IMG/VR virus record: IMGVR_UViG_3300020394_000201
Location: 1 to 20,095 of that record
Source: a virus
Length of the DNA stretch: 20,095 bases
Reading direction: 5' to 3' (one strand)
The notes below the pieces were generated by a model. The model was not told the origin of the DNA, made no database searches, and saw only the letters and a list, made by a program, of their open reading frames with translations. Shown here one piece after another: positions 2,134 to 17,813 of this stretch (position 1 is the first letter of the stretch; the number at the start of each line of letters is the position of its first letter). A program made the position numbers and the translations under genes.

Positions 2134-2572
2134 GGCTTACTCAGGGAAGTTCAGACCTCAAAACTACAAAAAATATAAAGGGGATCCTACAAACATTATT
2201 TATAGGAGTTTGTGGGAAAAGAAATTTATGCTATGGTGTGATAAGAATGAAAACATTTTGGAGTGGGGCAGTGAAGAAATCATTATTCCTTACAGGAGTC
2301 CTGTGGATAACCGTTTCCATCGGTATTTCCCAGATTTTTATGTTAAGGCAAAGACCAGAAACGGAACCTTATCAAAAAACATTATCGAAATTAAACCTTA
2401 TGCACAGACTCAGCAACCGAAACGCAATAAGAAGGTTAAGGTGACTAGATCTTATCTTTCAGAGGTTAAGACGTTTGCAGTAAACCAAGCAAAATGGAAA
2501 GCAGCAGATGAGTACTGTAAGGATCGTAGAATGAATTTCTTGGTATTAACCGAAAACGAACTCAGGGTATGA
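2132..2572 (+). CDS. 4: Head completion protein, T4 gp4-like nuclease fold
   Basis: 146 residues from the ATG at 2132, close to T4 gp4 (about 150). In T4, gp4 acts after DNA packaging to complete the head before tail joining. The motif series LWEKKFMLWCD, ILEWGSEE, IPYRSPVDNRFHRYFPDFYVK and IIEIKP is typical of the family. It contains a PD-(D/E)XK nuclease pattern: D68 in YFPDFY and E86-x-K88 in IEIKP. A longer in-frame start at 2075 would run 19 codons back into the opposite-strand gp48 gene and add a non-conserved hydrophobic leader, so the ATG in CATG is preferred. The stop overlaps the next start as ATGA. No good ribosome-binding site precedes the start. Confidence 0.82.
   Translation: MAYSGKFRPQNYKKYKGDPTNIIYRSLWEKKFMLWCDKNENILEWGSEEIIIPYRSPVDNRFHRYFPDFYVKAKTRNGTLSKNIIEIKPYAQTQQPKRNKKVKVTRSYLSEVKTFAVNQAKWKAADEYCKDRRMNFLVLTENELRV
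2197..2204 (-). promoter_or_regulatory. Candidate late promoter for gp48-gp53
   Basis: The minus strand reads TATAAATA here, identical to the T4 late-promoter box. It lies about 64 bases upstream of the gp48 ATG, inside the coding region of the divergent gp4-like gene. Because the two divergent genes share their start codons, an internal promoter is expected. In AT-rich DNA of this length a few chance matches are likely, so the support comes mainly from the position. Confidence 0.5.
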
Positions 2573-3045
2573 GTATTTTTAACGACGTAAAAGATTTAGC
2601 GGGCGGTCAACCAAAGAGTAGAGATTGGTACCGTTCACAGCTACTTTATGGTTTACAGGACTATGATGGTGGTTTTAGGACTGGTGACATCATATTTTTC
2701 TCATACAGTCCACAGACACCATCACCTCCATTACCATGGTATGACAGATACCCTATGGTGCAGATAACGGAGAGAGATACCACTAAAGGACAATTTACAG
2801 GTGGTAATCTACATTATCTACGACCAAACTTCCGAAGGTCAGTAGGTAAAATGTGGGCAACTGGTGCATATCAATATCCTATGCAGTGCTATCATAAATA
2901 CTTTATGAATAGTGTATCTAATGCGAAAACTATACCTAGGGAAGAGTTTGTCAATTGGAACCCCTTACCACTCGAACAGTTTTGGATTAAAAGAGGTGGT
3001 TCTTGGATGGATATACCTAGCAGTCACATATGGAGTAGAGTTTAA
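2569..3045 (+). CDS. Conserved myovirus protein, tail-region, unknown role
   Basis: 158 residues. The central pattern is a GDIIFFSYSP segment, then LPWYDRYPMVQI (about residues 54-67), then GGNLHYLRPNFRR (about 78-91). It resembles a conserved family found near tail and baseplate genes of T4-like cyanophages (from memory, often ending in LPYYDRFPLV and GLNLHYLPP). No catalytic motif, signal peptide or membrane segment is visible, and the protein is rich in Trp and Tyr. It starts in an ATGA overlap with the gp4-like gene and ends in a TAATG overlap with the tube-fold gene, so it is probably made together with them. Its position suggests a structural or assembly role, but the function is not established. 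Confidence 0.7.
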   Translation: MSIFNDVKDLAGGQPKSRDWYRSQLLYGLQDYDGGFRTGDIIFFSYSPQTPSPPLPWYDRYPMVQITERDTTKGQFTGGNLHYLRPNFRRSVGKMWATGAYQYPMQCYHKYFMNSVSNAKTIPREEFVNWNPLPLEQFWIKRGGSWMDIPSSHIWSRV

Positions 3046-3827
3046 TGGCTGAAGTAGTAAATGACATAGATTATAATCCTAATTATTTCGAGACTTTTAG
3101 GGAAGCTATTGCTATGGGTCATTTAGAACCCGCACGCAATAACCTCTATGAGTTTAGAATGGGACTGCCTTTGTGTATGATACCTGCTACTGGTGATGTA
3201 GTAGGTGCAGGTGTTCCTAATCTAGCATGGTTAAAATCAGATTCAGGTGGTAAGAATCTAATTAAAAATATGAATCTGTTTGCAAATAATATAACAATTC
3301 CATCTAGAAATGTAACAACTTCAGAAGTACATGTACATGGAATGAACCGTAGTTATGCTAGTGGACAGTCACCAACAGATTTAGAAGTAAGTTTTATAGT
3401 AACAAAGGATAACCAACATAGAGCATTTTTTGAGCAATGGATGCACAATTGTGCTTCTGATTCAGATAATACTGTAGGTTTCTATGACCAGTATGTGTGT
3501 GAGGTAGATATAGTAAAGTGGGAAAGTGGATCTAACTCTTGGTTGACTAAGGTAGTACAAGAAGGTGCCACAGAAAGAATGATGAAGTTTAGAATGAACC
3601 AAGCGACTGCAGTTTATAGGTGTTTTGGTGTATTTCCAAAGAATATTGGAACTCTCTCATTAAATAATGAGGGTAGATCTATTATGGAACTCAGTGTAAG
3701 CTTCCAGATGGAGAGATATAGATTTGATACTGTCAACGTTGATGGTCTTAAATCTAATACACCTAAAAGAGAGTATACTGCTTCCGAGATACCTAATCCT
3801 GGAAGCTTCCAACGATATGGTGTCTAA
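3045..3827 (+). CDS. Tail-tube-fold protein (gp54 tube initiator or gp19-like)
   Basis: 260 residues. Recognisable tube-fold features include NITIPSRNVTTSEVHVHG (about residues 83-100), SPTDLEVSFIVTKDNQHRAFFEQWM (about 108-133), the GFYDQY segment, AVYRCFGVFPKNIGTLSLNN and SVSFQMERYRF near the C-terminus. T4 gp19, the major tube protein, has 163 residues. The greater length and the location beside gp48 and the hub genes favour a gp54-type baseplate/tube junction protein that starts tube growth. A second tube protein with this fold is equally possible from sequence alone. It starts by TAATG overlap with the preceding gene. Confidence 0.7.
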   Translation: MAEVVNDIDYNPNYFETFREAIAMGHLEPARNNLYEFRMGLPLCMIPATGDVVGAGVPNLAWLKSDSGGKNLIKNMNLFANNITIPSRNVTTSEVHVHGMNRSYASGQSPTDLEVSFIVTKDNQHRAFFEQWMHNCASDSDNTVGFYDQYVCEVDIVKWESGSNSWLTKVVQEGATERMMKFRMNQATAVYRCFGVFPKNIGTLSLNNEGRSIMELSVSFQMERYRFDTVNVDGLKSNTPKREYTASEIPNPGSFQRYGV

Positions 3828-3853: not shown

Positions 3854-4555
3854 ATGCCTTTACCCAAACTTGCAGTGCCTGACTATGACTGCGTACTACC
3901 TGTTAGTGGTACAAAAGTCAGTTATAGACCGTTTCTTGTGAAAGAGGAGAAATTGCTTTACATTGCAATGGAAACCCAAGATGAGAAAGAAATGGCAAAA
4001 GCAGTTAAGAATATTCTTAAAGCATGTACAGACTTAAAGAATATTGATAAACTGCCTACTTTCGAAATTGAGTACTTATTTTTGAGAATCCGTGCTAAAG
4101 CAGTCGGAGAGAAGAGTGAATTTAAAGTAACTTGCCCTGATGATAATAAGACTCAAGTTGATATAGAAGTTAATCTTGAGGAAGTAGAAGTAACAGTACC
4201 TAAGAATCATATGAGGATTCTTACTATAGATGATGATATTAAGATTGAGATGACATATCCATCTCTTAATGCGTTTATTGACCGTAATATGAAGAACGAT
4301 CCTACCATGGAGGATGTATTTGACTTATCTGCATCATGTATTGATAAAGTATATCAAGGTGATGAGATCTATGATTCCTTTACTAAGCAGGAAGCAATTG
4401 ATTTCATCGGTGACATGAACCAAGATCAGTTTGGTAAAATCCAAGAGTTCTTTGAGACTATGCCTAAACTAGAGCATACTGTCAAGATCTTTAATCCTAA
4501 GACTAAGAAAAAGAGTGATATGAAACTGGAGGGACTAGCAAGTTTTTTCGGGTAG
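3854..4555 (+). CDS. 26: Baseplate hub assembly protein, T4 gp26-like
   Basis: 233 residues, near T4 gp26 (208). The start with LPVSGTKVSYRPFLVKEEKLLYIAMET (about residues 16-42) is the hallmark of the T4 baseplate gp26 family. TFEIEYLFLRIRAKAVGE (about 68-86) and a C2-like stretch with CPDD follow. T4 gp26 is needed to build the central hub and is not a major virion component. The region ends in LASFFG, where the codons AGT TTT TTC GGG TAG contain a frameshift heptamer in the right phase. A stem-loop follows, so a fraction of ribosomes may make a 299-residue fusion with the next ORF. Its location just before that ORF and the tape-measure candidate fits the role of a tape-measure chaperone. 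Confidence 0.82.
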   Translation: MPLPKLAVPDYDCVLPVSGTKVSYRPFLVKEEKLLYIAMETQDEKEMAKAVKNILKACTDLKNIDKLPTFEIEYLFLRIRAKAVGEKSEFKVTCPDDNKTQVDIEVNLEEVEVTVPKNHMRILTIDDDIKIEMTYPSLNAFIDRNMKNDPTMEDVFDLSASCIDKVYQGDEIYDSFTKQEAIDFIGDMNQDQFGKIQEFFETMPKLEHTVKIFNPKTKKKSDMKLEGLASFFG

Positions 4556-4609
4556 CGTTAATGCATGACAGTCTTGAGAATATGTACAAGACCAACTTCG
4601 CATTAATGC
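4543..4609 (+). promoter_or_regulatory. Candidate programmed -1 ribosomal frameshift signal
   Basis: The heptamer T TTT TTC (4543-4549) is read in the X XXY YYZ phase at the end of the gp26-like gene. A 5-base spacer (4550-4554) follows, then a stem of 10 bp with one G-U pair (4555-4564 with 4600-4609). Inside it is a second perfect 6-bp stem, GTCTTG (4571-4576) with CAAGAC (4587-4592), with a 10-base loop. After a -1 slip the codons are CGG GTA GCG TTA ATG, which run without a stop into the frame of the small ORF at 4561. That ORF's own ATG is buried in the stem and lacks a clear Shine-Dalgarno sequence. The parts and their spacing are seen directly; their activity is inferred. Confidence 0.8.
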
Positions 4610-4752
4610 AGCATCACAAATATAGTCTTACTGAATTGGAAAATATGATGCCATGGGAGAGGGAAATTTACGTCAGTCTCCTCATCAATCATATTAATGA
4701 GCTCGAGAAAGCAAGAAACTCGGCTAAGAACCAAAATAGAGTAAGTCTCTAA
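4561..4752 (+). CDS. 51: Small gp51-like hub chaperone ORF, probably a frameshift extension
   Basis: 63 residues if started at its own ATG. The pattern LTELENMMPWEREIYVSLLINHINELE (about residues 23-49) resembles T4 gp51, the baseplate hub assembly factor. It also recalls the downstream T-type segment of tape-measure chaperones, which often carries a similar PWxxREIY helix. The ATG lies within the 5' arm of a stable stem, and the five bases after the gp26-like stop give no proper ribosome-binding site, so independent initiation looks poor. The same frame is open back to 4519 and so covers the upstream slippery site. It is therefore likely to be translated as the C-terminal part of a 26-51 fusion. 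Its stop overlaps the next start as TAATG. Confidence 0.72.
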   Translation: MHDSLENMYKTNFALMQHHKYSLTELENMMPWEREIYVSLLINHINELEKARNSAKNQNRVSL

Positions 4753-7289
4753 TGACAGCAGTAGTAAGAAAATTTATCAAGATCAATCCCGTAAGAGCAA
4801 CAGAACCCTACGGGAAACAGATTAGAGCTCAGACTATTGCTTACAATAGATTAGGTGGGACACTGACTGGTATTGGTCAGAACCTAGCTAATATAACCAA
4901 TATGATGGAAATCCAGAATGAATTCTTCACTGAGTCATTTCTAAAGAAGAAGAAGGAAGATAAGGAAGAAGTTGATAAGCAACTGGATGAAAGATTAGAA
5001 ATAGCGGAAGATACAGAGAGAGAAGAAAATTTTAAAGAAGATCAGCTAGCTGAGGAAGCTCAGGAAGTTGATGAAGAAGAAGAGAATGAAGATGGTTTAG
5101 CTCAAGCAAAGAAAGCTCCCAAGAAGAAATTCTCTTGGATGGAGGCGTTTCTAAAACCATTCGCACCTCTATTTGGATTTTTAAAAGCTACCGTAGGGAC
5201 ATTTATAAAGTATAAGTTCCTTAAGTGGGTCGGAGATCCGAAGAACCAAAAGACTATGAAGGTCTTCTTCAGCTTCATGAAGTCCTTATTTAAGATGGTC
5301 TTTGGACTGGTCAAATTTGGTTCGAACCAGATAATGACTGGTATTGGTAATGTATTTGGTAATAAAGATCCAGGTCAATCTAATTTAGATAAAGCATTCG
5401 AAGGAATGTTTGGTATCCTCAGGATTATTGGGGGTATGGCAAGTTTCTGGTTAGCATCTAGGATGTTGATGCCATGGAAACTATTAAGTGATATCAATGC
5501 AATGAGAACCATTGGTGTTGCACTGACTGCAGGTGAGTCAGCAGGTGGTGGTCCTGGTATGGGTAATAGAAGAAATCCAAATCAACCAAAGGGTAGAAAT
5601 TATAAGAGTTTAGCAGATCGTCTTCGCAGTACTCGTAGGAAACTACAGATTGCGACGGAGAAGTTTAAAAGAGGATTAGGTAATAAAGTAAATCAAGCTA
5701 AGAACCTTGGTAAGAATATTTGGAAGACTGGTAAAAACCTCTTCCAGAAAGGTATGAAACTCTTCCAGAGTAAACCTGGTACTGGTGGTGGTTGGTTTAA
5801 AGGTCTTAGAGGTAACATTGCTAATATGTGGAAGAATGTCTCTGGTAAAGCGGGAGACGCATGGAATTTTATAGGTAAACAAGGTAAGAAGTTCTTAACT
5901 TGGGCTGATGACTTTGGTAAGCAAATGCTGAAAAATGTTGATGATGTTATTGGTGGTATACAAGCTAAAGCTGGTGCTTGGGCTAAGAGGATTGGTGATA
6001 TAGCAGAAATGGCTAAGAACCCTGCAAAATTAGTAGAGAAGGTCAAGGGTCTGCTTAAGGGCAAGATGGATAAACTGCTTAAGCAGAATAAAACTATGGC
6101 AAAGCTCCTAGAACTTGGGAAGGATCCAAAGAAGATCAAGGATGCCATCCAAGGTATGATGAAAGGGGCAAAGACGAATAAGAATCTATTAAAACTTCAG
6201 AAGGGATTAACCAACGCCAAAGCAATGAAGATTGGTGGTCTTGATGCAATCATTGCTGCCATCTTGGGAGTCATTAATTATACAATGTTAGGTGAATCTC
6301 CTATCAATGCTCTTGTAAATGCATTATCTGGACTTGTAGGTTATACTGCAGGTTTTGCGATTGGTGCTCCGTTTGGTGGTGCACCAGGTTTCATTACTGG
6401 TATGGCAGGTGCTTGGGTTGGTGAACAGATAGGTAAGGTAATATTATCTGGTTTAGCTAAGACAGGGTTAGACAAAGTAACAGATCCTATAATGGGTGAT
6501 AGACCGCTTGTAAGAGATCCTTTCGGTGGTGGTGATTCTGGAGGAGAGGGAGATGGAGAGAAATCCGATTTAGAACTACAACTTGAGCGAGAGGATGCTG
6601 AGGAAAGAGAGCTTATGTTGCATCCTTATGATAGGAGGAATGTAGATGTTTCAGCATTTGGTGGTGAAGAAGGTAAACTCTATACTCTTAGAGAACTCCT
6701 TACGATGGAACAGGAGGGTGGACCTGAGTTTGCGATAAAGTATCTCGAAGCGAGAAGGGGTATCCATGCGGATATGAAAAAATCTGGTATGGGCAGTGAA
6801 GGTTCATACACTTGGTCATCTAAAACAGAGATGACCAATGAAAAGGGTGAAACGATAGTTGTAACGGATTCTTATGATTCTAATAAAATGATCGGTGGTC
6901 TTGTTCCTTTTGTTAAGGATATTAAGACCTTTAAAGATAACAAGATTATGAATTGGATGAAAGAAGAGGGTGGAGAATTCATTAGAAATGCATTCGAGAC
7001 TGGAAAAGAAGGTCTAACACAGTTAATGACTGGTGACATGGAAGGTCTTAAAGAAACTACTTCCAATGTATCCGACAAACTTGGTGGATTCGCAATAAAT
7101 ATAAAGGAGATTATCGCAGCTAAATTAGAGAAGGTTAATAAACCTACTACAGTTAAGAAGACTAATACTAATACAGAAATAATTGTTGCTAGACAGCAAG
7201 TAATTGTGAATAAAGGTATTACTAAAGCACCTCGTAGAGTAGTTTATGCACCTGCCCCAACCATGGTTAACCGTCAGATGAGAGTATAG
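4752..7289 (+). CDS. Candidate tape-measure protein (gp29 position)
   Basis: 845 residues. The N-terminus (MTAVVRKFIKINP) is followed by an acidic, charged stretch at about residues 62-118, probably coiled coil. Next comes a conserved helix block, KYKFLKWVGDPKNQKTMKV (about 151-172), then a long Lys- and Gly-rich amphipathic region with many KxxKNLxKxxWK-type segments (about 270-480). Residues about 495-568 form a hydrophobic, Gly/Ala-rich membrane-like segment. A Gly- and acid-rich linker leads to the C-terminus. Length, amphipathic helices, hydrophobic segments and location directly after a chaperone frameshift pair fit a tail tape measure, which sets tail length and enters the cell envelope on DNA ejection. 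It shares the LKWxxxPxNxKxxK motif with the next gene. Direct homology to T4 gp29 could not be verified. Confidence 0.62.
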   Translation: MTAVVRKFIKINPVRATEPYGKQIRAQTIAYNRLGGTLTGIGQNLANITNMMEIQNEFFTESFLKKKKEDKEEVDKQLDERLEIAEDTEREENFKEDQLAEEAQEVDEEEENEDGLAQAKKAPKKKFSWMEAFLKPFAPLFGFLKATVGTFIKYKFLKWVGDPKNQKTMKVFFSFMKSLFKMVFGLVKFGSNQIMTGIGNVFGNKDPGQSNLDKAFEGMFGILRIIGGMASFWLASRMLMPWKLLSDINAMRTIGVALTAGESAGGGPGMGNRRNPNQPKGRNYKSLADRLRSTRRKLQIATEKFKRGLGNKVNQAKNLGKNIWKTGKNLFQKGMKLFQSKPGTGGGWFKGLRGNIANMWKNVSGKAGDAWNFIGKQGKKFLTWADDFGKQMLKNVDDVIGGIQAKAGAWAKRIGDIAEMAKNPAKLVEKVKGLLKGKMDKLLKQNKTMAKLLELGKDPKKIKDAIQGMMKGAKTNKNLLKLQKGLTNAKAMKIGGLDAIIAAILGVINYTMLGESPINALVNALSGLVGYTAGFAIGAPFGGAPGFITGMAGAWVGEQIGKVILSGLAKTGLDKVTDPIMGDRPLVRDPFGGGDSGGEGDGEKSDLELQLEREDAEERELMLHPYDRRNVDVSAFGGEEGKLYTLRELLTMEQEGGPEFAIKYLEARRGIHADMKKSGMGSEGSYTWSSKTEMTNEKGETIVVTDSYDSNKMIGGLVPFVKDIKTFKDNKIMNWMKEEGGEFIRNAFETGKEGLTQLMTGDMEGLKETTSNVSDKLGGFAINIKEIIAAKLEKVNKPTTVKKTNTNTEIIVARQQVIVNKGITKAPRRVVYAPAPTMVNRQMRV

Positions 7290-7290
7290 T

Positions 7291-9630
7291 ATGGCAACAA
7301 CACCAAAAGCACGATTATATAAGATGATAACTCCACCAACGGTGAAGGGTGGAATTACTGTGAAAGTTGGTGGTAAGACAGTTGCTGGTCCTATGGATGG
7401 CATGACCACCATGATAAAGGCAACTAATAGTATAGGTGCCACTACTAATAGCATTGCTATCATTGTACAGAAGATGAATGAATCTTTTGCTACACAGATG
7501 CAAATGCAGATACAGCAACAACAAGAATTAGCAGATGCAAGAGAAGAAGGAGTACAAAGATTAATAGATCAGAGAAGGGAAGAGCAAGACGATATAAACA
7601 GAAAAAAAGATAAACAAGATGATTTAGATGCAGAGAATAAGCAGGAAGGTCAAGGTGGAACATCACTTTCATATAAAGCAGGTGCCATTGTCGGTGCTGT
7701 TTCTAATGCATTTGGTTTCTTCGAAGGTATTGCAAGGTTCTTAGGAAATGTCTTTAAAACAATTGTTAGTTATGCAATACTGAAATGGATTGCTAATCCT
7801 GAGAACACCAAGAAAGTCAAGAAGATGATAGAGGGTGTTGCTAATATTGGTAAGTTCTTACTTAAAGTTGCAGGTTGGATAGTCAACATGGGACTGGGTG
7901 GACTGGGTGATTTCATGGAAAACCCCTTGAGTTTTAAAGGTATATTTGGTATAGTAAAATTCATAACTGCATTGGGTTTATTCTTCGCACCTGCAAAGAT
8001 GGCGAAGTTGGGACTGAAGGCAGTCATGTCTCTCTTTAAAGGTGGTAAACTCTTTAAGATAATTGGTAGTATGATGAAGAACCTGATGAAGGTTTTTAAA
8101 GGTATAGTAGCGTTCTGTGCTGCTAGACCTAGAGCAGCTCTCATCTTAGGAGGTGCTATACTTGCTACATGGGGTCTAAAAGCACTACTTGATAAGGATG
8201 AAGAAGCAGCAGGAGACGAATTAGAAAAGGATGACAAAGAACAAAAAAATAATGATAAAAAGAATTGGCTTGGTAGTTTATTTGGTGGGAATAAAGATAA
8301 CAAAAAGGAAGAAACACCAGAGAAAGGATCAGAAGAATCTTATGAGCAATGGAGACGAAATTATGATGCTTCCGATACAACTATACATGGTTTAAAAGAA
8401 GGTGATGAAGGTTTTGAGGATGCATTAAAGAAAAGTTGGATGGGGGAGCAACAGAATCAAATAGAAGGCAACTCCGCAAGAATTACTGGTAAAGAAGCAG
8501 AAGGATTAAAATTCGATGATGGAACAGAAGGAAAGCCAGAAATGGCAAAAGGTGGATGGATATCAGGTCCTCAATCTGGTTATCCCGTCAGTCTTGATGG
8601 TGGCAAATCAACTGCCTTCATTGGGCATGGAACAGAGTATGTTGCTGCTCCCAAAGCAGCAAGCGGGGGTGCTTTCGTAGTACCGTTTGATACTCCCGCA
8701 ACTAGAAGAGATCCAAGTCTGACTGGTAGAAGGATGAATGAAGCAGGTAGAATGGGATTTGGACTACCTGGATTTTCTATGGGTGGACTCTTAGACTTTA
8801 TTGCTAAGGGTGAAGGTGGATATAACTCCATGAACCAAGGTACTATGTTTGGTCGTATTGTTGGTAGTACTCATGATGCAAAATCAAAACTTGGTAAGAA
8901 CCTGACTGACATGACTCTTCGTGAAGTTATGGGACTTCAGAGAAGTCGTAAATTATTTGCTGCAGGTCGTTATCAGATCATACCTACTACTATGAGGTGG
9001 ATCGTTGATAAAATGAAACTCCCTGCAGGTTCTACGTTTAATTCATCATTGCAAGATAAGATGGGTGAAGGTCTCATAAAACATAAGAGACCATATGCTT
9101 GGAACTATATTAAAGGTAAGCATGATGATGAGCGTGGTGCAATGCTTGCACTAGCTAGAGAGTGGGCTTCTTTACCACATCCTGATACAGGTAAATCTGT
9201 TTATGGTTTTGGTAACAAGGCACTTCATAGTGTTGATGAAGTTAGAAAAGCACTTAATGATGCAAGAGGTACTCAACCAGAGAAGGAACAAAGTGGACTA
9301 CAGAAGTTATGGCAGGGAATAAAGGATAGATTCAGTAATAAAGATCAAGTTCAGGCTGACCCTAAACAGACATCAGTCAATAGTGGTACCACTATAGATA
9401 ATAATGCTGTGACAGAAGAAGTCTCTACTGGTAGTGGAGACGGGAATGTTAACGTTACTACGGGTGATGTGGCTCCAATCGAAGCTGGTAGTGGACAAAA
9501 TCCAACAGATATAACACCTGATCCACCCATATTCATTGACAATAAGTATGAACCACCAGCTAATGATTATTTCCGTACTAGATATGGAATGATGGCAGAA
9601 GCAAACACCGAACCAGTTGAGATGTTCTAA
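7291..9630 (+). CDS. Tape-measure-like tail protein with C-terminal lysozyme-like domain
   Basis: 779 residues. A Gln- and Glu-rich coiled coil covers about residues 60-125. It is followed by AILKWIANPENTKKVKKM (about 157-175), which parallels the block in the preceding protein, then hydrophobic helices (about 180-300). After an acidic low-complexity linker, residues about 498-660 look like a peptidoglycan hydrolase of the lysozyme superfamily. The evidence is FIAKGEGGYNSMNQGT with a candidate catalytic Glu, LTDMTLREVMGLQ, then AAGRYQIIPTTM, the usual second motif of transglycosylases and phage muramidases. The C-terminus is low in complexity. It probably travels in the tail and opens the cell wall locally during infection. 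One base separates it from the previous stop, and it overlaps gp27 by TAATG. Whether it is a second tape measure or a hub lysin is open. Confidence 0.65.
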   Translation: MATTPKARLYKMITPPTVKGGITVKVGGKTVAGPMDGMTTMIKATNSIGATTNSIAIIVQKMNESFATQMQMQIQQQQELADAREEGVQRLIDQRREEQDDINRKKDKQDDLDAENKQEGQGGTSLSYKAGAIVGAVSNAFGFFEGIARFLGNVFKTIVSYAILKWIANPENTKKVKKMIEGVANIGKFLLKVAGWIVNMGLGGLGDFMENPLSFKGIFGIVKFITALGLFFAPAKMAKLGLKAVMSLFKGGKLFKIIGSMMKNLMKVFKGIVAFCAARPRAALILGGAILATWGLKALLDKDEEAAGDELEKDDKEQKNNDKKNWLGSLFGGNKDNKKEETPEKGSEESYEQWRRNYDASDTTIHGLKEGDEGFEDALKKSWMGEQQNQIEGNSARITGKEAEGLKFDDGTEGKPEMAKGGWISGPQSGYPVSLDGGKSTAFIGHGTEYVAAPKAASGGAFVVPFDTPATRRDPSLTGRRMNEAGRMGFGLPGFSMGGLLDFIAKGEGGYNSMNQGTMFGRIVGSTHDAKSKLGKNLTDMTLREVMGLQRSRKLFAAGRYQIIPTTMRWIVDKMKLPAGSTFNSSLQDKMGEGLIKHKRPYAWNYIKGKHDDERGAMLALAREWASLPHPDTGKSVYGFGNKALHSVDEVRKALNDARGTQPEKEQSGLQKLWQGIKDRFSNKDQVQADPKQTSVNSGTTIDNNAVTEEVSTGSGDGNVNVTTGDVAPIEAGSGQNPTDITPDPPIFIDNKYEPPANDYFRTRYGMMAEANTEPVEMF

Positions 9631-11548: not shown

Positions 11549-12154
11549 ATGATTGGTGACTATATTGATATTGACGCACCCTATTCTTTTATAGGGGGCG
11601 GGGTGATGGAACCTGAAATAATTGATGGATTGTGGGACTTCTGGAATGATCCTGCGATGGAAACGTTGTTTGAGAAAACAGAAGGTCATTGTGGTGGTAT
11701 GGGAGAGAAGGTCAATAAGGAAGTCAAAGACTCCATTGACATGACTATACCCCGATATATCAAGGATAAAAGAATTTGCGATTATATAGATGGTCTAGCG
11801 GAGATTACGAGAGAATATGTAAACTACTGGCCAATGCTTAGGACTATCCATTGGGATCTGCAGAGTGATTTTAACTTGCAGTGGTATCCCAAAGGTGGAG
11901 GATTTAAACAGATGCATTGTGAAAGAAACAATGCAGATATAGAAGCGGTCACTCGTGTTATGGCATGGATGACATACTGTAATGATATAGAAGAAGGTGG
12001 AGAAACATTATTTGATGTACAACAAGCAAAGGTAAAACCCAAGAAGGGATTGACATTGATCTGGCCAAGTGATTGGACACATTTTCATAAGGGATGCCCT
12101 GCACCCAATGAAGAAAAGATGATTATTACAGGATGGTATAACCTTGTTCGATAA
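11549..12154 (+). CDS. 2OG-Fe(II) dioxygenase (prolyl-4-hydroxylase-like)
   Basis: 201 residues. It has the layout of a 2-oxoglutarate- and Fe(II)-dependent oxygenase. A first metal motif is H123-C-E125 in KQMHCERNN, followed by VMAWMTYCNDIEEGGETLFD as in P4H-type enzymes. The second His is H180 in THFHKGCPAPNEEKMIITGWY, with K190 ten residues on as the probable 2-oxoglutarate anchor. The motif is HxE rather than the commoner HxD. Such genes are frequent in marine T4-like phages among structural genes. The substrate (a virion protein, a host protein or a small molecule) cannot be told. It starts 10 bases after cp12, and its last bases overlap the TTG start of the CpeT-like gene. Confidence 0.78.
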   Translation: MIGDYIDIDAPYSFIGGGVMEPEIIDGLWDFWNDPAMETLFEKTEGHCGGMGEKVNKEVKDSIDMTIPRYIKDKRICDYIDGLAEITREYVNYWPMLRTIHWDLQSDFNLQWYPKGGGFKQMHCERNNADIEAVTRVMAWMTYCNDIEEGGETLFDVQQAKVKPKKGLTLIWPSDWTHFHKGCPAPNEEKMIITGWYNLVR

Positions 12155-12620
12155 ATTGATTATTGGTCATTATGAGAATAAGAAACAAGCATACTCAAAC
12201 CCTACTAAGTGGCCATGGGTAAACATTCTCTACACCAAGATAAAACCTAACGTATTAGAACTCAAGCAGTGGTATAACTACGCAGGGGAGGATGAACCGT
12301 ACAGGCACTACCATATAACTTTCGAATATGATGCACCTGATACGGTTTTCACTAAAGCACATAACCTTTTGATTGATAAAGAGGGATGTGAAATGCAGTG
12401 GGGATTCTTCCAAGGTACATGGTATGGCGAAGTAAAAGGTGAGTGTATTGTCAGAGATACAAAAGTCGAAAGTCATGTAGAATTTGATGGCACAAACTAC
12501 AGGTCATTGGACACTGGATATAACATAGAGACAGGAAAATTTTCTTGGGGTAAAGAACCCTCTGAAGGTTTCTTTACTTTTACTAAGCTAAATAACAGCA
12601 GGAAACTAGATTTAACATAA
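12144..12620 (+). CDS. cpeT: CpeT/CpcT-like phycobiliprotein lyase
   Basis: 158 residues. CpeT/CpcT proteins attach bilin chromophores to phycobiliproteins or act as bilin-binding chaperones in cyanobacteria. Seen here are the N-terminal IIGHYENKKQAYSNPTKWPW, PYRHYHITFEY (about residues 52-62), a GECIV segment, and the family ending SLDTGYNIETGKFSWG followed by FFTFTK. The protein is shorter than many cyanobacterial homologues (about 200 aa). No in-frame ATG exists near the conserved start. The best candidate is TTG at 12144 with AGGA at 12130-12133, inside the end of the oxygenase gene; a second TTG at 12156 would trim four residues. It ends in TAATG with the gp5-like gene. Together with CP12 it points to a photosynthetic cyanobacterial host. 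Confidence 0.76.
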   Translation: MFDKLIIGHYENKKQAYSNPTKWPWVNILYTKIKPNVLELKQWYNYAGEDEPYRHYHITFEYDAPDTVFTKAHNLLIDKEGCEMQWGFFQGTWYGEVKGECIVRDTKVESHVEFDGTNYRSLDTGYNIETGKFSWGKEPSEGFFTFTKLNNSRKLDLT

Positions 12621-16478: not shown

Positions 16479-17813
16479 GTGGCAACTAAAAGAATATCAC
16501 AACTTGATACTATAGCTGATGCGTTGGTGACAGGGGAAGCAGTGCTTCCTATTGTTATTTCTGATCCACTTATTCCAAATAGAAAATCAAAAGTTAATCA
16601 ACTTTTTAGGTCAGTTTCTGCAGGCTCACAAGCCGCTCCAGGACTGGCTTTCGATTTGGATAGGGACACAGGGATTTACCAGAGTGCAGTTAATGAAATT
16701 GGACTCACGTTCGGTAGTGCATCATTATATAATCAACGTAACGCAAACCAAGATGGTTCATCAACTTTGCAGATTCGTGCAGTTGATACAGCGTCAGCAA
16801 ACTCTAATGTAGAGATAGTTCCTCAAGGTAGTGGATATTTCACTGTCAATGGATCTGCTACATTTACAGACTCCAACGTTTTCTTCGAAGGTGACCAAAA
16901 CCCAGGAAAGAAGGTAGTCTTTAACGTAGATACAGTTTCTACTGCAGGTGGTATACGTCGTTTCGACTTTCCAAATGTAGGAGCAAACACCTCAGCAACT
17001 ATTGTTGCAGCAGACACATTTCAGACTCTAACTAATAAGTCTATTATCATTAAAGATAATGACCTTAGTATTACAGGTTCTACAGACGTTGCTAAGATTG
17101 CAAAATTCGAGACAGATGCATGGGATGCTCCTGGTCAGCATATCTATCGTCTTCCTGACTATGGTACTACCATTACGCAATCAACATTACTTGATGATAT
17201 AACTCAGCAAGACGTTAAGAACAAGAACATGGTTAACCCCACGTTCTCTACTACACCGTCTACAGATGAGAATGATCCAACCAAGTACATCATCTTCGAT
17301 CAGTCTGGTATTACACAAGACAGAACAGTTACTTGGCCAGATCTTAACGTTAAGGTAGTTGGTGAAGCATCAACTCAGACATTAACAAACAAAGTTTATA
17401 AGGGTGCCATTTTTGAGGACACTGGTGATGTTACCAAGAAGATTAGTTTTAACCTAGCTAACCTCAATGCTAACAGCAATTTACAGTTCACTTTCCCAGA
17501 AGGTTCTATTTCAGAACCTCTAAATAATGGTAACGATTCCAACGTTATTGTAGCAGAGAAAGCAACGCAGACTCTTGCTAACAAGACTATGGAATTCATG
17601 AAGATTAACAACCCAGAGAATGTTAACGGATTAATTTCTATTGATGCGACTAACATTACTGAACCAGTTAACATTCAGTTTCCAGGTGCGGATGCTACAT
17701 TACTATCTACTAACAACATCGAGGCGGTTGGTGTTAGCTTTGGTGGTCCTTTATCAGCACCTACATTCGGTGGTAGACTCCGACTCCAATCTTTTTTCCA
17801 AGCAGGGTGGTAA
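16479..17813 (+). CDS. Virion structural/fibre-like protein with QTLTNK repeats
   Basis: 444 residues. It starts with GTG at 16479: no in-frame ATG is close, and the conserved-looking start MATKRISQLDTIADALVTGE begins there. This N-terminus resembles cyanophage structural proteins that begin with a KRISQL segment and attach to the baseplate or fibre network. Three copies of a QTLTNK-type motif occur at about residues 182 (QTLTNKSI), 300 (QTLTNKVY) and 364 (QTLANKTM), each after a VAADT/VGEAS/VAEKA-type segment, as in phage fibre stalks. The remainder is beta-rich and Asn/Thr-rich. An ATG with a five-residue minigene overlaps the start out of frame. A late promoter lies just upstream. Its role in host contact is inferred. 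Confidence 0.68.
   Translation: MATKRISQLDTIADALVTGEAVLPIVISDPLIPNRKSKVNQLFRSVSAGSQAAPGLAFDLDRDTGIYQSAVNEIGLTFGSASLYNQRNANQDGSSTLQIRAVDTASANSNVEIVPQGSGYFTVNGSATFTDSNVFFEGDQNPGKKVVFNVDTVSTAGGIRRFDFPNVGANTSATIVAADTFQTLTNKSIIIKDNDLSITGSTDVAKIAKFETDAWDAPGQHIYRLPDYGTTITQSTLLDDITQQDVKNKNMVNPTFSTTPSTDENDPTKYIIFDQSGITQDRTVTWPDLNVKVVGEASTQTLTNKVYKGAIFEDTGDVTKKISFNLANLNANSNLQFTFPEGSISEPLNNGNDSNVIVAEKATQTLANKTMEFMKINNPENVNGLISIDATNITEPVNIQFPGADATLLSTNNIEAVGVSFGGPLSAPTFGGRLRLQSFFQAGW

Follow-up and report, generated by a model that had tools for sequence, protein, structure and literature searches.

In phages lambda (G/GT) and P2 (E/E+E'), two overlapping genes lie upstream of the tape measure gene (Xu, Hendrix and Duda 2004), and the same layout is found at the locus described here, upstream of what is likely the tape measure gene. 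The proteins of lambda and P2 belong to different families from those of our locus, where the heptamer is U UUU UUC and is accompanied by a stimulator resembling a Shine-Dalgarno (SD) sequence. In E. coli dnaX the same three parts are present, i.e. an internal SD, a slippery heptamer and a downstream hairpin (PMC5600365; PMC4066793). The slippery site of dnaX is A AAA AAG, however, and the product is a different one. There the shift shortens the protein, whereas at our locus it would lengthen it.

T4 itself was listed as an exception in a 2016 review (PMC5009743). As their paper is summarised and cited elsewhere, Vladimirov, Gautam and Davidson (2022, Virology 566:9-15) identified the tail assembly chaperone (TAC) genes of T4-like phages; PMC12846349 refers to it for slippery poly-T sequences in their TAC-N genes, and PMC10885494 for T4-like phages that have a short gene alongside a fusion gene. 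Going by these citations, poly-T sites in T4-like phages are already attributed to that study, so the frameshift is not undescribed, and the suggestion in the initial annotation that this may be an undescribed or under-described case has to be withdrawn. The TAC-N/TAC-NC genes, as far as those citations go, resemble our locus in the kind of signal and, reportedly, in the gene pair (26 and 51). The 2022 study is said to have found the frameshift kept in several T4-like groups, whereas in T4 the two genes are used separately. Possible additions to the 2022 work are the SD-like element, the turnover of hairpins and the Ackermannviridae tetramer described below.

The locus lies within a stretch of 20,095 nucleotides from the IMG/VR virus record IMGVR_UViG_3300020394_000201, a T4-like cyanophage; this stretch is referred to as the window. 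Its features are as follows.

3854 to 4555, plus strand: gene 26-like, zero-frame product of 233 aa, equivalent to TAC-N and lambda G (PF12322 T4_baseplate, E 3e-68; phrog_150, E 2.7e-73)
4528 to 4533, plus strand: GGAGGG, a putative stimulator resembling an SD, separated from the heptamer by 9 nt (75 of 83 loci reach an anti-SD pairing of -5 kcal/mol or lower)
4543 to 4549, plus strand: slippery heptamer T TTT TTC, in X XXY YYZ phase relative to the gene 26 frame (83 of 83 near relatives)
4553 to 4555, plus strand: zero-frame stop TAG, one codon past the heptamer (identical distance in 83 of 83)
4549 to 4752, plus strand: -1 frame extension, RVAL plus the gp51-like part, 67 aa, equivalent to TAC-C and lambda T (phrog_634, E 2e-27, and the C-terminal end of phrog_150; open in 83 of 83; no ATG start in 14 of 83)
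4555-4564/4600-4609, plus strand: outer 10-bp stem with one G-U, GCGTTAATGC/GCATTAATGC, a clade-specific candidate stimulator
4571-4576/4587-4592, plus strand: inner 6-bp stem GTCTTG/CAAGAC, conserved in the near clade
4752 to 7289, plus strand: next gene, 845 aa (phrog_17778, function unknown; sub-threshold Pfam match only)

The heptamer and its conservation

At the 3' end of the gene 26-like frame the window reads CTG GAG GGA CTA GCA AGT TTT TTC GGG TAG, and after a -1 slip the reading becomes ...TTT TTT CGG GTA GCG TTA ATG..., which continues into the open reading frame (ORF) at 4561. The spacer between the heptamer and the stem is 5 nt long (4550-4554), and the fusion has a length of 232+4+63 = 299 residues, with SFFRVAL at residues 230-236. 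The initial annotation had located the heptamer, its phase, the spacer, both stems and the open -1 frame correctly to the base, and its 299-residue fusion with this peptide agrees with our reading, as does its observation that the ATG at 4561 lies inside the outer stem without an SD. A second in-phase TTTTTTC occurs in the window at 17792-17798, near the end of a 444-aa ORF; this is probably a chance occurrence, since its -1 frame closes after six codons.

For comparison, 83 sequences were used, consisting of 80 IMG/VR relatives, the phages P-RSM6 and syn9, and the window, together with a thinned set of 68 representatives sharing less than 85% identity. The pattern NNT TTT TTC NNN STOP is found in all 83, without variation in phase or in distance to the stop, and in 68 of the 68 representatives. 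The -1 frame reading is also conserved in the 83 sequences as FF-R-[IVL]-[ASG]-..., followed by the gp51 domain, with a single locus (L040) having Q in place of R. One could argue that the heptamer is kept merely because the protein needs Phe-Phe, and the two residues are indeed conserved at the protein level. It is the choice of codons that is fixed, however: TTT is followed by TTC and NNT always precedes them, against a background Phe codon use in these genes of 0.72 for TTT and 0.28 for TTC. Given the genes' own codon use, a Phe pair that is always TTT then TTC in the 68 representatives has a log10 P of about -47 (a non-phylogenetic estimate), and a -1 frame that is open into a conserved domain goes beyond any need for Phe-Phe, leaving this explanation scarcely credible. 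An accidental heptamer can be rejected as well, with in-phase T TTT TTN found at just 7 of 15,898 other codon positions in these genes; the junction heptamer is far above chance expectation.

The arrangement extends to divergent T4-like phages. When the fusion was used as a tblastn query, 921 phage records were matched. U UUU UUC/U/A followed by a -1 frame that is open and holds the gp51 domain was found in Vibrio phage nt-1, Aeromonas phage ZPAH1, Cronobacter phage LPCS28, Pseudomonas phage pf16, Sinorhizobium phage phiM7, Stenotrophomonas phage DLP6, Pelagibacter phage Mosig, the freshwater phage BUCT-ZZ01, Agrobacterium phage Atu_ph07 and Pseudoalteromonas phage XG4, where it is unannotated. 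The -1 frame past the heptamer is thus open and encodes the conserved gp51 domain in the window, in its relatives and in these more distant phages. In Mosig (2501-3232 of its locus) the zero-frame stop lies nine codons past the heptamer, compared to one elsewhere, and the short form therefore carries a longer tail. In Ackermannviridae (loci L084 and L099-L113) and in Vibrio phage K483, the gp51-like domain is likewise in the -1 frame relative to gp26. The canonical heptamer is absent at these junctions, which read GAG ATT TTC ATT TAA or CTT TTC AAG TAA, and only a T_TTC tetramer without a long T run fits.

Signals around the junction

In the databases gp51 is treated as an independent protein, whose translation would begin at ATG 4561, either because ribosomes re-initiate past the gene 26 stop or through translational coupling. 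Cyanophage P-RSM6, whose gp26 and gp51 are 100% identical to those of the window, is annotated in this way, with the ORF beginning at the ATG equivalent to 4561, and an ATG is found within 15 codons in the -1 frame in 69 of the 83 sequences. In the other 14 there is no ATG near the junction in that frame, and where one exists, its position drifts (codon 2, 3, 5 or 8) and anti-SD pairing of -5 kcal/mol or lower precedes it in just 3 of 69 cases. The FFR-[IVL]-[ASG] residues ahead of the ATG are conserved at the protein level, and an independent start leaves the invariance of the heptamer without a reason. Database entries start gp51 at differing internal codons or omit it, and in some records, such as that of syn9, an internal start loses the conserved N-terminal part. 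With no start in 14 of 83 and nearly no SD, separate initiation of gp51 was rejected as the explanation, and we consider it very improbable.

The initial annotation did not include the GGAGGG at 4528-4533, which was added by the present analysis. Mean anti-SD pairing at this element in the 68 representatives comes to -7.2 kcal/mol, the background being -0.34 +/- 2.36, and its Glu codon is GAG in 76%, compared to 11-61% at other conserved Glu columns. The element is about 24 nt from any gp51 ATG and is therefore too distant to be a ribosome binding site for it. Together with the heptamer and the downstream folding, GGAGGG makes up a predicted three-part -1 frameshift cassette like that of dnaX.

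Folding is localised. For the 63 nt directly 3' of the heptamer the mean folding z is -1.92, with 54% of values below -1.5, whereas at 21 other offsets it ranges from -0.81 to +0.63, so that the peak is exactly 3' of the heptamer. In the window, the minimum-energy fold (-18.3 kcal/mol, z -2.7) contains exactly two stems, the outer and the inner one. In the near clade the inner stem has 93% of its cells paired and four of its six pairs show changes on both sides, albeit in few sequences, and the same helix is recovered independently by RNAalifold. In 15 near relatives, 79% of the cells of the outer stem are paired, and this stem is formed in part of the clade only; as it is disrupted in several near relatives, the 10-bp stem was rejected as a general stimulator. 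Other clades have different hairpins, one of them being GTATGGCAC...GTGTCATAC, and folding of the syn9 junction gave no hairpin after the heptamer. The downstream structure varies between clades, which counts against the frameshift reading. An alignment of heptamer, phase and stems, which the initial annotation had proposed as a check, thus bears out the heptamer and phase in 83 of 83 and the inner stem in the near clade, while the outer stem turns out to be clade-specific.

Slippage could also take place during transcription, at the T6 run, giving frame-shifted mRNAs from which the fusion would be made by ordinary translation. The run is present and conserved. However, six Ts are short for slippage by bacterial RNA polymerase, and the junction has the marks of ribosomal slipping, with a phase that fits X XXY YYZ exactly, a C at position 7, an SD-like element and RNA structure; Ackermannviridae, moreover, keep only T_TTC without a long run. 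Transcriptional slippage seems to us slightly less probable still than a separate start of gp51.

The 26/51 junction is thus, with high confidence, predicted to be a programmed -1 ribosomal frameshift that would yield two tail assembly chaperones, a short one in the larger amount and a long one in the smaller. The -1 frameshift that the initial annotation had proposed for joining the gp26-like and gp51-like frames, following the logic of lambda G/GT, is supported by the heptamer in 83 of 83, the open frame and the stimulators. In the proposed mechanism, the majority of ribosomes would terminate at the TAG at 4553 and release the 233-aa short chaperone. A minority would be made to pause by two elements, GGAGGG upstream of the slip site, which would pair with the 16S rRNA, and an RNA stem 5 nt downstream of it, and the two Phe-tRNAs would then shift from TTT TTC to TTT TTT in the -1 frame. 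Slipped ribosomes would read RVAL and continue in the gp51-like frame to the end of the 299-aa long chaperone. We infer the slipping, its rate and a division of labour like that of lambda gpG/gpGT, by analogy with which the short form would coat the tape measure protein and the rare long form would recruit tail-tube subunits via its C-terminal domain.

The chaperone pair and its T4 counterparts

A chaperone role for gp26 and gp51 of the window is suggested by work on T4 and by the 2022 identification. For T4, PMC3004832 lists both proteins as chaperones of hub assembly, with gp51 absent from the particle. The AlphaFold model of the window's gp26 (pLDDT 86.9) matches models named 'baseplate hub assembly chaperone' and 'baseplate hub subunit' in BFVD, with a best E of 2.3e-17. 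A fold search of this model against the PDB gave no significant match, which counts against the chaperone reading; among the matches listed, the HK97 tail assembly chaperone 2OB9 had the highest probability (0.33), but with E values of 1.6-2.8. A sequence search against the PDB gave no match.

PF12322 is found in both T4 gp26 (E 9e-64) and T4 gp51 (E 4e-52), as it is in the window pair, but the T4 genes are divergent and separate, and gp51 is an uninterrupted fusion. It has a full T4_baseplate (gp26-like) domain plus a C-terminal domain, spans positions 13 to 280 of the 282 in phrog_150, and also matches phrog_634. The sequences show the two T4 proteins to be paralogues, and their genes lie next to each other in divergent orientation in T4 (5303-6729 of locus L095) and at loci L083 and L088. 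The domain content makes T4 gp26 comparable to G, the short form, and T4 gp51 to GT, the long form, and since gp51 is uninterrupted, no frameshift is required in T4. The initial annotation had taken genes 26 and 51 as the equivalents of G and T, which is right for TAC-N and TAC-C in the window; in T4, gp51 corresponds to GT instead.

Both domains are found in one continuous ORF in T4, S16 and Aes012, and the fusion is therefore a natural protein. In the same vein, the gp51-like ORF of the window matches phrog_634 plus the C-terminal end of phrog_150, so that the profile of gp26 relatives already holds the gp51 part in one chain. The gp51 of cyanophages and of marine vibriophages has been described as being without the first ~200 residues (Sullivan et al. 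2010, PMC3037559). These 'missing' residues are explained if they are gene 26, joined by the slip, with T4 gp51 being the in-frame fusion.

It is possible, although we would place it slightly below an even chance, that marine T4-like phages have kept a complete three-part cassette of the dnaX type in which the SD-like element and the heptamer are fixed while the 3' hairpin turns over between clades, and that elsewhere the chaperone pair has been remade two times or more, in the T4 group through gene duplication with in-frame fusion and in Ackermannviridae through shrinkage of the site to the T_TTC tetramer.

Neighbouring genes and annotation

In P-RSM6 the annotation runs 'baseplate hub', 'baseplate hub assembly catalyst', then a long unknown, then 'endolysin'. 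The initial annotation had named the gene after the pair as the tape measure. From its position directly after the pair, the 845-aa gene is likely to be just that, though sequence homology gave only phrog_17778 and the sub-threshold Pfam match; in phiM7 and pf16, ORFs near the pair have weak matches to tape measure families (E 1.8e-5 and 0.0085). At 4752-9630 of the window, the 845-aa gene and a 779-aa gene share N-terminal matches to phrog_1200, phrog_790, phrog_2588 and phrog_17500, and therefore have the appearance of tandem paralogues that have diverged; 'endolysin', the label carried by these shared PHROGs, is doubtful here. Further downstream, a 2OG-Fe(II) oxygenase (11549-12154) and a CpeT/CpcT-like protein (12144-12620) are set among structural genes and are probably auxiliary metabolic genes.

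The principle of frameshifting in T4-like phages was published in 2022, and the window and nearly every marine relative examined make up a further, well-supported predicted case. Database entries split the chaperone gene, start its second half at the wrong place or omit that half altogether. The finding indicates that the tail chaperones of a highly abundant group of ocean viruses are made by frameshifting.
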